This document shows, one piece after another, positions 4,723-23,717 of a stretch of DNA of 28,767 bases. Made by a program: the position numbers and the translations under genes. The notes below the pieces were generated by a model. The model was given only the letters and a program-made list of their open reading frames with translations. It did not search any database and was not told the DNA's origin. The DNA lies in IMG/VR virus record IMGVR_UViG_3300021368_000101, positions 1 through 28,767 of that record; one strand, 5' to 3'. Each line of letters starts with the position of its first letter. Positions within the stretch are counted from its first letter, which is position 1. The DNA comes from a virus.

Positions 4723-4983
4723 TTACCCTATCCCGGGTCTTTTTCTTTCCGGGTCTAATACTTCATGTTTGTCCAGGAAGCCCTCCAGGTACATAGCTCT
4801 TTCTACGTGGTCCAGTGTGTACCTTTTTCCTAGCCTAGCTTCCAACGCTTCTCTTACATAGAAGACATCGGACTTAGGTATGTGTACACGTCTGAGTCTT
4901 TTACTGTCACCGTCTGCTATAGCATCGTAGAACTCTTCAATGACATCCTCAGAAGAGTACAAGCTTACTTTGTTCTTATACAT
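4723..4983 (-). CDS. Conserved small phage protein, first gene of leftward operon
   Basis: An 86-residue cytoplasmic protein with alternating acidic and basic helices (EDVIEEFYDAIADGDSKRLR; then YVREALEARLGKRYTLDHVE). I recall similar proteins in marine phages without a known role. The ATG is preceded by TTAAGGTTAG and by a leader of about 130 bases from the promoter at 5124-5152. A GCGTTGG heptamer (4842-4848 on the plus strand as CCAACGC) lies in an Ala-Leu codon pair. Confidence 0.6.
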   Translation of the reverse strand: MYKNKVSLYSSEDVIEEFYDAIADGDSKRLRRVHIPKSDVFYVREALEARLGKRYTLDHVERAMYLEGFLDKHEVLDPERKRPGIG

Positions 4984-5047
4984 AGTCTAACCTTAAAAGG
5001 TGGTATGTGCAGTATCTACATGTAGGAGGAGGAGACATGGAGGAAGA

Positions 5048-5120
5048 GTAACACACAGATTACTACACATACCATAGTGTAACACTTATTGTTTGTTACA
5101 TTATATTGTGTTACGTAACA
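5048..5120. promoter_or_regulatory. Cluster of GTAACA/TGTTAC half-sites, operator-like
   Basis: Five copies of GTAACA or its complement TGTTAC lie in 73 bases: 5048-5053, 5079-5084, 5094-5099, 5109-5114 and 5115-5120. The last two form the perfect 12-base palindrome TGTTACGTAACA, which covers the predicted transcription start (about 5117) of the leftward promoter. That position is classic for a repressor operator. No repressor gene is seen in this window, so the binding protein is unknown. Confidence 0.55.
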
Positions 5121-5123
5121 AGA

Positions 5124-5152
5124 AGTATACAGAAGGATAGTATAACTGTCAA
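5124..5152 (-). promoter_or_regulatory. Sigma70-type leftward promoter, proximal
   Basis: On the minus strand, TTGACA (5152-5147), a 17-base spacer and TATACT (5129-5124) form a near-consensus sigma70 promoter. Predicted start is about 5117, about 134 bases before the first leftward gene. A copy of the 9-mer AGTTTAACT abuts the -35 box. Confidence 0.75.
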
Positions 5153-5242
5153 GTTAAACTTTACCTATGTCCAATTATTTATATAGTTTAACTATTTATT
5201 TAGTTATATTATTTATTAAGTTAAAACACTAAAAGTTTAACT
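5152..5242. repeat. Three copies of AGTTTAACT in an AT-rich tract
   Basis: The 9-mer occurs as AGTTAAACT at 5152-5160 and in the opposite orientation at 5185-5193 and 5234-5242, with a degenerate copy near 5218. The sequence between is almost only A and T. It lies between the two leftward promoters. It could be a regulator site or iterons of an origin; chance is not excluded given the composition. Confidence 0.4.
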
Positions 5243-5261
5243 GTCCTGCTCCTGCTCCGCA

Positions 5262-5289
5262 GTTATACTCAAAAAATAGGGTCTGTCAA
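5262..5289 (-). promoter_or_regulatory. Sigma70-type leftward promoter, distal
   Basis: On the minus strand, TTGACA (5289-5284), a 16-base spacer and TATAAC (5267-5262) form a second near-consensus promoter reading into the leftward operon. The same box pair and spacing recur in front of the SSB-like gene at 17336-17363, supporting use of host-type RNA polymerase. Confidence 0.65.
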
Positions 5290-5527
5290 GTATATATTTG
5301 TAATACTGCGACAGTTTGACACACTTATAAAAAACCACTTCTGTGTATTTGTGTATATATACGTACTATACACCCGGCAGTGGCTCTCGCACCCCCCCTC
5401 TAAAATAAAAAAATATCTGTAAATCTAAGTGTCTTACCTTGTAAGTTATTGTTTTTGTTAGACTTTATAACTGATATATCCTCAATATACTGTAAAAAGG
5501 TGTGTCTTTCTTGCAACATTCTAGAAA

Positions 5528-5597
5528 TGTGATCACAAATCAAGAAGGGATGCATAACTATACCCCTCTTTTGTGATCACAAAATACTATACCCCTC
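5528..5597. repeat. Tandem operator-like unit: TGTGATCACA plus ACTATACCCCTC, twice
   Basis: TGTGATCACA occurs at 5528-5537 and 5572-5581; the second is the centre of a perfect 16-base palindrome (TTTTGTGATCACAAAA, 5569-5584). Each is followed by an identical 12-mer ACTATACCCCTC, at 5557-5568 and 5586-5597. Spacing between palindrome and 12-mer differs between the two units. This looks like a pair of binding sites for a dimeric regulator; which one is unknown. Confidence 0.6.
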
Positions 5598-5697
5598 AAA
5601 AAGCTAAACTCATTATATATACAAAAAGAAGTTCTTACTTTGTTCTACTCTTAAAAGCTAAGTCTTTGTTTTTATTACACTTTCATCCTGGCTGAAA

Positions 5698-5712
5698 GAA
5701 CACAACGAGAAC
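5698..5712. promoter_or_regulatory. GAAC-N7-GAAC, alphaproteobacterial LexA-type box
   Basis: GAAC at 5698-5701 and 5709-5712 with exactly 7 bases between matches the alphaproteobacterial SOS box (GTTC-N7-GTTC on the other strand). About one match is expected by chance in a window this size, but few in a 1.3 kb control region. It overlaps the palindrome AACATATGTT (5710-5719). Confidence 0.35.
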
Positions 5713-5829
5713 ATATGTTTTATCTGCACAAAATCTGCATAAAAGTTTTCAATAAAATCAAACACTTACAAGAAATGTGCAGAAAGTGTGCATTTTTTAC
5801 TTGCTTTCTATGTTGTGGTATGTCCTTAA

Positions 5830-6235
5830 TAGGTTATCGAAAGCGACAAGTTAGCTTAGAGAGTAGGCCAAAAGCCCTTGATCCTCAGATTAACAGCGTC
5901 CTCTCGACGGCTCGGTGAAATGCCCTAGCAAAATACTAAAGACTACTAACTAAACTAAATAAGAAAGACTGAATATAACGAAACAAACTAAATTGATCAG
6001 GCCACATATTATAGCCGACCAAATGATGAGATTAAGGAACTCAATAGCTGCCCAATGGAAGTGACGTGGATTAGCAGCAGTAGGATTGATGCAAAGCCCA
6101 ATCTATAGAACGGTAGAACACATAAGTCCGTCATTAGGAAAAGTGATTGCTTTTTGTGAGGGTCAATCTAGGCTAAATGCGGCCAACCGTATCTTGTCCT
6201 TGAGACATGGGCTTGGATTGCCCTTTTGTAAGAGC
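5830..6235 (+). ncRNA. Candidate structured RNA (family not recognised)
   Basis: This stretch has no plausible gene but many short stems. Examples are CGTC/GACG around 5898-5910, GATTG/CAATC at 6084-6103 and ACGG/CCGT at 6110-6131. There is also a three-way-junction-like domain closed by 6158-6168 with 6216-6225. It encloses a 6-pair hairpin with a CCAA loop (6177-6192) and a UGUC/GACA hairpin (6195-6207). I tested it by eye against tRNA, tmRNA, RNase P RNA, SRP RNA and group I intron cores and found no match. The strand is a guess from direction toward the early genes. Confidence 0.3.
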
Positions 6236-6312
6236 AATAAAAAAATGTTTGACAGCATTTTAAAAGTATGATCCTTATGTAAGTGAAAGACAAAACAGAA
6301 AGGACAAACAAA

Positions 6313-6510
6313 ATGGAAGAAACAAAAAGAGTAGAATTGATCAAGTCAATCATAAGACTTTATTATCAAGCTGAATTAAACTGTAATTTTGTTAGCAATG
6401 AATTAGCAAGACAATTAGATAAAGAGCTAGAAAAGTTAATGACAAAGGAAGAACAAGACTTGTTTTTTACTTCAAATGAATTTCAATCAATCCCTTGGGA
6501 TGTAGTGTAA
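6313..6510 (+). CDS. Small acidic helical protein, first rightward gene
   Basis: A 65-residue protein, mostly helical and charged (KRVELIKSIIRLYYQAELNC, then ELARQLDKELEKLM), ending IPWDVV. The ATG at 6313 is chosen over an in-frame GTG at 6283 because AAAGGA lies about 8 bases upstream of the ATG. It heads the rightward early operon. No family is recognised; many phage early genes of this size are host-takeover factors, but nothing here shows that. Confidence 0.65.
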   Translation: MEETKRVELIKSIIRLYYQAELNCNFVSNELARQLDKELEKLMTKEEQDLFFTSNEFQSIPWDVV

Positions 6511-6523
6511 GGAGGACTTATCA

Positions 6524-7282
6524 ATGTCAAACTACAAACTAATTGGCGTAGGAACAAACGCAAAAACTGTAAAGGGTGACGGTAGCGAATACCTAACCGC
6601 AATCCTATATATGACACCCTACAAAGTATGGGTAGAAACTTTGGGCAGATACTCAAACTCATGCCCAATGGCTGAACAAGCTGGATGCATTGATGCCTGT
6701 CTAAATACGGCTGGAAGGGGAAAGTTTAGCAATGTCCAAACGGCAAGAGAAAGAAAAGCACAATGGTTCTATAATGATAGAGATAGCTTTATGGATCAGC
6801 TTATAATAGATATTTCAAAGTTTGTTAATTACTGTAACAAGCGTGGAATACAACCTTGCGTTAGATTAAATGGTACAACCGACATTCAATGGGAATTAAT
6901 CAAAACGGAAAGCACCTATGGCAAAAACATTTTTGAATGGTTCCCTGAAGTGCAATTCTATGACTACACTAAAATTGCTAATCGCAGAAAAGCCAAAGAC
7001 ATACCAAACTATCACTTAACATGGTCATACTCAAACGCTGACCCAAGATATGCGGCAATGCTAGACACTGCCATTGAGAACGGTATGAACGCAGCAGTAG
7101 TGTTTAGATCAAACTTTATCGAGGTCAAACCTAAGTGTTGGCACACATGGAAAGGATTGCCTGTCATTGATGGTGACAAAGACGACTTGAGGTTTCTTGA
7201 TCCAAAGGGTGGTCACATTGTCGCACTCTATGCAAAGGGTGAAGCTAAGAAGGATCAAACAGGTTTTGTACAGGAGGTGTAA
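6524..7282 (+). CDS. Phage gene-product-88-like protein (GP88 family)
   Basis: A 252-residue protein matching a widespread phage family of unknown function. It shares the start YKLIGVGTNAKTVKGDG, a Cys cluster near residues 47-59 (CPMAEQAGCIDACLNTAGRG), FSNVQTARERK, the strand VRLNGTTDIQWE, FPEVQFYDYTKIANRR, YHLTWSYS, and a C-terminal VIDGDKDDLRFLDP. The three clustered cysteines could bind a metal or iron-sulfur centre. AAGGAGGACTTATCA precedes the ATG. The family name is from memory, and no activity can be assigned. Confidence 0.75.
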   Translation: MSNYKLIGVGTNAKTVKGDGSEYLTAILYMTPYKVWVETLGRYSNSCPMAEQAGCIDACLNTAGRGKFSNVQTARERKAQWFYNDRDSFMDQLIIDISKFVNYCNKRGIQPCVRLNGTTDIQWELIKTESTYGKNIFEWFPEVQFYDYTKIANRRKAKDIPNYHLTWSYSNADPRYAAMLDTAIENGMNAAVVFRSNFIEVKPKCWHTWKGLPVIDGDKDDLRFLDPKGGHIVALYAKGEAKKDQTGFVQEV

Positions 7283-23684: not shown

Positions 23685-23717
23685 TAAAAAAGGCCGCTAA
23701 ATGCGGCCTCTTCTTTT
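23685..23717. terminator. Bidirectional Rho-independent terminator
   Basis: A perfect 7-pair stem AGGCCGC/GCGGCCT (23691-23697 with 23703-23709) and TAAAT loop is preceded by an A-run and followed by TTCTTTTATA, so it works in both directions. It lies between the last rightward gene and the last leftward gene, whose operons converge here. Confidence 0.9.

Follow-up and report, generated by a model that had tools for sequence, protein, structure and literature searches.

The put RNA of phage HK022 consists of two stem-loops, with putL just downstream of PL, which act on RNA polymerase without the help of a protein (PMC9378689); at ~70 nt, this RNA stands alone (PMC9378689). GOLLD and ROOL are large structured phage RNAs of unknown function in which one part is conserved and another less so; GOLLD is often longer than 800 nt, and both are often found near tRNA islands (PMC12286853). 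The manA, wcaG and PhotoRC-II motifs are described as marine structured RNA domains that lie before genes and occur also in cyanophages (PMC2864571). Phages of the HMO-2011 type are said to dominate in the ocean and to be widely distributed there (PMC9038755); a search of the text of that paper returned nothing on promoters, intergenic regions or noncoding RNA.

Here we analyse a block in one such phage, for which no description of a similar RNA was found among literature titles and the opening lines of abstracts. The block is a genuine structured RNA of ~400 bases, the shape of which is kept across many related phages, and it is probably a cis-acting modular 5' leader of the early, rightward transcript.

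The divergent gap and its relatives

The window, by which we mean the whole virus record of 28,767 bases, derives from a marine phage assigned to the HMO-2011 type because its DNA polymerase shares 71.4% identity with that of Roseobacter phage CRP-207 and 54.2% with that of Puniceispirillum phage HMO-2011. A DNA similarity search against annotated phage records gave no match for the window. Leftward genes, on the minus strand, end at 4983 and rightward genes run from ~6313, leaving a divergent gap of ~1.3 kb, and the structured block forms the right-hand third of it, its boundaries being refined to 5836 and ~6238 (Table 1). As originally predicted, it stands upstream of the first rightward gene, the ORF of which starts at +477 from 5836. 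This small ORF, between the leader and the gp88-like gene, is missing from that place in L022, L023, L012 and L003, while L002 has a similar-looking small ORF there. Two further short ORFs overlap the ends of the block (5715-5918 and 6086-6271) with no sign seen of their being genes, and the possibility that the block is protein-coding was rejected, as relatives differ by indels and compensatory changes.

Table 1. Coordinates of predicted features in and around the structured block (window positions unless a locus is named).
Feature	Position	Strand	Remarks
Putative rightward promoter	5801-5835	+	position relative to relatives
5' domain	5836-5934	+	P1, P2, inner hairpin, P3; minimum-energy fold gives these helices
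P1	5842-5843, 5845-5847 with 5898-5902	+	
P2	5850-5854 with 5890-5894	+	
Inner hairpin within P2	5866-5868 with 5874-5876	+	
Hairpin P3	5910-5912 with 5927-5929	+	inner G-C pairs
A/C-rich unstructured linker	5935-5995	+	minimum free energy 0 kcal/mol
Middle hairpin P4	6027-6043 (6027-6030 with 6040-6043)	+	loop ATTAAGGAA
Middle hairpin P5	6047-6078 (6052-6054 with 6067-6069)	+	inside GCTG/CAGC stem
P5 outer stem GCTG/CAGC	6047-6050 with 6075-6078	+	by eye
Further hairpin	6084-6088 with 6099-6103	+	by eye, sequence only
Further hairpin	6110-6113 with 6128-6131	+	by eye
3' domain	6139-6238	+	P6-P9
Outer helix P6	6146-6154 with 6230-6238	+	closes junction
Long helix P7	6158-6174 with 6210-6225	+	
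Hairpin P8	6177-6182 with 6187-6192	+	CCAA loop
Hairpin P9	6196-6198 with 6204-6206	+	CTTGA loop
First rightward ORF	6313-6510	+	65 aa from ATG; no PHROGs match
gp88-like ORF	6524-7282	+	second, after 65-aa ORF
Different conserved block	L043 3300-3440, L044 3480-3610, L039 3940-4040		by eye

Three routes yielded relatives: the gp88-like protein (22 loci), an alignment of the left neighbour's protein (568 loci, of which 80 were kept) and a conserved motif (93 stretches). In blastn, the region 4990-6268 matched L022 at 79%, and the region up to 6222 matched L023 and L012 at 76-78%. Sixty candidates passed the filter for the leader set, from which L157 and L211 were dropped as unrelated; the promoter logo was made from 59 rows and includes the unrelated L157. 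Another locus, L024, found by an 18-base exact pattern, had only ~20 bases in common with the block and was taken as a chance match. A host or prophage copy was likewise rejected, as an exact-pattern scan of genome contigs, which diverged copies would escape, returned 0 stretches.

The opposite side of the gap was also inspected. The leftward transcript (5152-4984, minus strand) has a strong promoter-like site (TTGACA, 17, TATACT), and its leader forms a long hairpin around a CCTCCTCC-rich loop. Across 21 relatives, the arms of this hairpin paired at -30.2 kcal/mol within leaders against -20.5 kcal/mol between them (0 of 5000 permutations); L100 was the one locus of the 21 whose own arms paired less well than exchanged ones. 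Between the divergent promoters lie two TGTGATCACA palindromes (5528-5537 and 5572-5581), which are possible operators, and CRP-603 (L042) has the same palindrome in its matching stretch. In CRP-1, CRP-345 and HMO-2011 a different conserved block is seen by eye at the corresponding place, a second leader family in isolates, and its stem, also by eye, changes in step (GGTATC/GATACC, GCAATC/GATTGC, GTAATC/GATTAC).

Covariation in a block of exchangeable modules

The original prediction of a hairpin-dense RNA had named two results that would speak against it, a folding energy no better than that of shuffled sequence and a lack of compensatory substitutions in relatives. The first of these was obtained: over the whole 406-nt block the energy had a z of -0.08, with 47 of 100 shuffles as good, and the 5' domain (z -0.06) and the middle (z -0.16) were no better. 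Compensatory substitutions, on the other hand, are present in the 5' domain, the middle hairpins and the junction, and the hairpin-dense structure is thereby confirmed. As the whole-block energy does not exceed that of shuffles, covariation is the evidence for structure; the energy test is a weak one for a structured RNA of this kind and, used alone, would discard a real RNA. The covariation counts given below are inflated by relatedness and by the derivation of the structure from the same alignments.

The 5' domain was analysed in an alignment of 17 relatives from which the window was excluded (A4). Here 96.8% of 339 cells were paired, with changes on both sides in 8 of the 20 pairs, and the covariation score of 0.292 compared with a shuffled mean of 0.121 (0 of 500) and with at most 0.064 for slid versions. 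RNAalifold added a P1 pair, 8-61, which is GC in 15 rows and AU in 2, and the inner hairpin occurs among relatives as AAC/GTT, AGC/GCT, GAT/ATC and ATC/GAT. A covariance model built from A4, and thus without the window, matched the window at 5836-5934 as a single hit (R1; 49.8 bits, E 2.4e-9) and recovered 64 of 65 selected loci, 17 of these being its training rows. In the window's own class (A3, 11 sequences) double changes were found in 7 of 21 predicted pairs. Two-strand alignment folding gave -16.6 for the plus strand and -17.0 for the reverse complement in A4, and -9.4 and -13.8, respectively, in A3. Folding thus leaves the strand of this domain undecided, and its direction rests on the promoter and on gene order.

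Beyond the 5' domain, the next 60 nt average 12.1 C and 7.8 G in the 58 relatives, with a mean minimum free energy of -1.7; the linker and its counterparts, with more C than G and no predicted structure, could be a Rho loading site. Among the middle hairpins, P4 showed double changes at columns 13, 14 and 16 of an 11-sequence alignment (A6), and the inner stem of P5 in 2 of 3 pairs. Taken together, P4 and P5 were paired in 78 of 78 cells, with double changes in 5 of 8 pairs, and the count of further pair types was not above shuffles (404 of 500). The second of the further hairpins (6110-6113 with 6128-6131) changes in step in relatives, by eye, as ACGG/CCGT, GCGG/CCGC, GTGG/CCAC and ATGG/CCAT. 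Two-strand folding of the middle hairpins (-7.3 for the plus strand against -5.2) lends mild support to the plus strand. A hairpin with a GGTGACTTGAATCA-like loop, the stems of which change in step, is found repeatedly in leaders, whether or not these carry the junction (L008 7411, L203 11630, L187 4790 and others).

At the 3' side, the minimum-energy fold is indeed the three-way junction expected at 6158-6225 with its 6-pair CCAA-loop hairpin. Its fold had a z of -4.17, and of -4.25 when the outer helix was included (6139-6238), with 0 of 200 shuffles as good in either case. In an alignment of 26 junction sequences, including the window and the isolate CRP-207 (A5), 97.2% of 565 cells were paired and 15 of 22 pairs carried double changes; the covariation score was 0.587 against 0.201 for shuffled alignments (0 of 500) and at most 0.131 for slid ones. 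The elements CTAA, GGCCAACC, CTTGA and ATGGG are near-fixed and lie outside helices or at helix ends, and 24 columns are invariant among the 26 sequences, unpaired letters being among them. MAFFT does not align the strands of P6, and the helix was examined by swapping strands among the sequences: pairing was stronger for cognate strands, at a mean of -8.7 kcal/mol, than for exchanged ones, at -6.6 kcal/mol (14 distinct flanks), with 1 of 5000 permutations as good. Two-strand alignment folding of the junction (alifold -18.7 kcal/mol for the plus strand, -5.7 kcal/mol for the reverse complement) favours the plus strand, while a strand call from G-U versus A-C cells (137 to 4) was discarded, the pairs having been chosen by plus strand folding. 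The junction model (R2) also matched loci outside A5, among them L082, L083, L084, L100, L124, L153, L170 and L162, and L097 weakly. The P8 hairpin scores as a terminator-like site, one being found against 1.0 by chance.

The block is built of folded modules that are exchanged between phages. The inner 5' stem falls into three types, A, B and C, besides others, and among the 58 leaders the junction is present in all 10 with type C, in 11 of the 26 with type B, in 2 of the 19 with type A and in none of the 3 others. Eight loci (L040, L079, L082, L083, L084, L097, L103 and L124) carry the junction with no R1 match up to E 1. Within whole records R1 was found in 11 of 24 and R2 in 8 of 24, never with two matches per record; of the seven named phages among these, none had R1 and only the isolated phage CRP-207 had R2, its junction module lying at 54671-54771 of the record. 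Such exchange of modules between a fixed start and a position adjacent to the ribosome-binding site would amount to a gene-like mosaicism of RNA parts. Both covarying modules now have covariance models, and one of them is present in an isolate, CRP-207.

A candidate leader of the early transcript and its rivals

Upstream of the motif, the 58 relatives display an A-rich stretch, a -35-like hexamer, a TG and a -10-like hexamer at a spacing of 17 bases. A -35-like hexamer (at least 4 of 6 letters) was in register in 44 of 58 leaders, A at -11 together with T at -7 in 46, and TG at -15/-14 in 32; the -35-like and -10 letters were both in register in 37 of 58, compared with a mean of 0.8 and a maximum of 4 in 200 letter-shufflings. 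The predicted sigma70-type promoter would, in most relatives, have the transcript begin on the first A of ATCGAAAGCG (5836 in the window) or directly beside it. The window itself belongs to the 12 leaders of the 58 that lack this A and T in register at -11 and -7. Its hexamers, TTGCTT at -35 to -30 and CCTTAA at -12 to -7, match a promoter poorly, a promoter consensus scan of the window reported none at 5801-5835, and its start is therefore assigned by homology. Covarying structure thus lies between promoter and first gene, with the window's own promoter poor.

In 53 leaders, 323-694 bases lie between the motif and the start of the first ORF (at least 55 aa, with a Shine-Dalgarno-like sequence). 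By blastp at 1e-3 these ORFs form 15 groups that show no similarity to one another, and the RNA is therefore not tied to one gene. Terminator-like sites between the predicted start and the first ORF were seen in 2 of 53 leaders (L022 and L194; 1.5% in shuffled leaders). In 25 of 34 loci (36 with the junction model, L084 and L172 being left out as near-duplicates), 8-25 nt separate the end of the junction from a start codon that has a Shine-Dalgarno-like sequence; in the other 9 the distance is 48-106 bases, and the window, at 74, is one of these. The promoter before the 5' end in most relatives, the few terminator-like sites and the junction near the ribosome-binding site make a long structured leader the best fitting of the roles offered by the original prediction, which had also named a trans-acting and an origin-linked RNA. 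The position at the predicted start, the expected read-through into unrelated genes and the junction beside the ribosome-binding site together point to a cis leader of the whole early message.

A noncoding RNA that acts in trans, transcribed from this promoter and then freed by processing or by termination, in the spirit of GOLLD and ROOL, could also account for ~400 nt with many helices, no gene-specific partner and a single copy per record. We regard it as unlikely: the scarcity of terminator-like sites before the first ORF and the frequent closeness of the junction to a start codon argue against it, as do the exchange of modules without retention of the whole architecture and the lack of a gathering-score match to GOLLD, ROOL or any other Rfam family in the window and six relatives. 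An origin-linked element, such as a structured primer or replication start, is very improbable. The window's cumulative GC skew is lowest at ~6 kb, in an AT-rich intergenic region with palindromes nearby, but the switch in gene direction there is enough by itself to explain the skew; moreover, the junction favours RNA of one strand, and at least 5 of the 7 named phage records of this kind are without both modules, CRP-207 having one.

For the favoured cis leader the following sequence of events may be envisaged. Host RNA polymerase would start at or near 5836, and the first ~100 nt would fold into two stem-loops at the RNA 5' end. After a linker without structure and a set of exchangeable hairpin modules, the leader would end near the ribosome-binding site in a three-way junction whose unpaired bases are strongly conserved. 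The transcribing polymerase may be the target of the 5' domain, or this domain may protect the 5' end of the transcript. The junction may set or gate how the first gene, whichever it is, is translated, with a protein, a ligand or the ribosome as its binding partner. Recognition of the junction by one of these three, next to the Shine-Dalgarno sequence, is likely. A CsrA sponge, a by-eye notion from GGA in loops, was dropped.

The leader might instead mainly stabilise the early mRNA or insulate its translation, sensing nothing and leaving the polymerase untouched. With structure starting no more than a few bases from the predicted 5' end and a Shine-Dalgarno sequence just past the closing helix in many relatives, this simpler function is a possibility of some weight that we nevertheless doubt, as invariant unpaired letters and long conserved single-stranded stretches suggest recognition. 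Those same invariant letters, in a three-way junction directly before the ribosome-binding site, would also suit a ligand-binding aptamer, that is, a riboswitch of a new class before the early genes; this is distinctly improbable, given first ORFs that are mutually unrelated and share no common pathway.

For the 5' domain of the favoured leader, our first choice, by analogy and speculative, is RNA-only antitermination of the HK022 put type. It is a tentative choice, since terminator-like sites are not enriched in the rightward gene block: only 4 weak ones were found on the plus strand before its end, which is chance level, and thus nothing in that block calls for antitermination. A terminator-like hairpin on both strands lies at 23686-23714, where the rightward and leftward gene blocks meet. 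A combined scheme, in which the 5' module alters host RNA polymerase protein-free, followed by exchangeable hairpins and by a new aptamer or protein-binding junction domain that gates translation, is rather unlikely as a whole. If true, such a polymerase-modifying 5' module joined to a translation-gating junction would constitute a new class of modular leader RNA in abundant marine phages.

Comparison with described RNAs

That the block would match no RNA class was borne out by a covariance search of Rfam 15, which placed neither the window nor its relatives in a family. The best Rfam match to 4980-6600 was DUF805b (E 0.41, 15.4 bits against a gathering score of 35.6); this and the matches to STnc40, SraG, U7 and FTX_4 were far below gathering scores and were taken as chance. 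GOLLD and ROOL gave no gathering-score match in the window, none up to E 10 for 4980-6600 and none in six relatives. A tRNA search of the window found none; the window may be a fragment, and GOLLD and ROOL are near tRNAs often, not always. The model R1 found no match up to E 10 in the HK022 genome (L218, 40,751 bases).

The block is a new family of a known kind, the structured phage leader, and its modular build is unusual. Unlike GOLLD and ROOL, it measures ~400 nt, adjoins a putative early promoter and is without an Rfam match, and unlike manA, wcaG and PhotoRC-II, which are Rfam families, it corresponds to none of them. The closest resemblance in arrangement is to HK022 putL and putR: two stem-loops a few bases into the predicted transcript, before a long early gene block; the predicted early promoter in front of them is in register in most relatives and poor in the window. 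HK022 put counters both termination and pausing, whereas the rightward gene block here has no excess of terminator-like sites, and in contrast to the short, solitary put RNA, the 5' domain of ~100 nt is followed here by a further 300 nt of modules.
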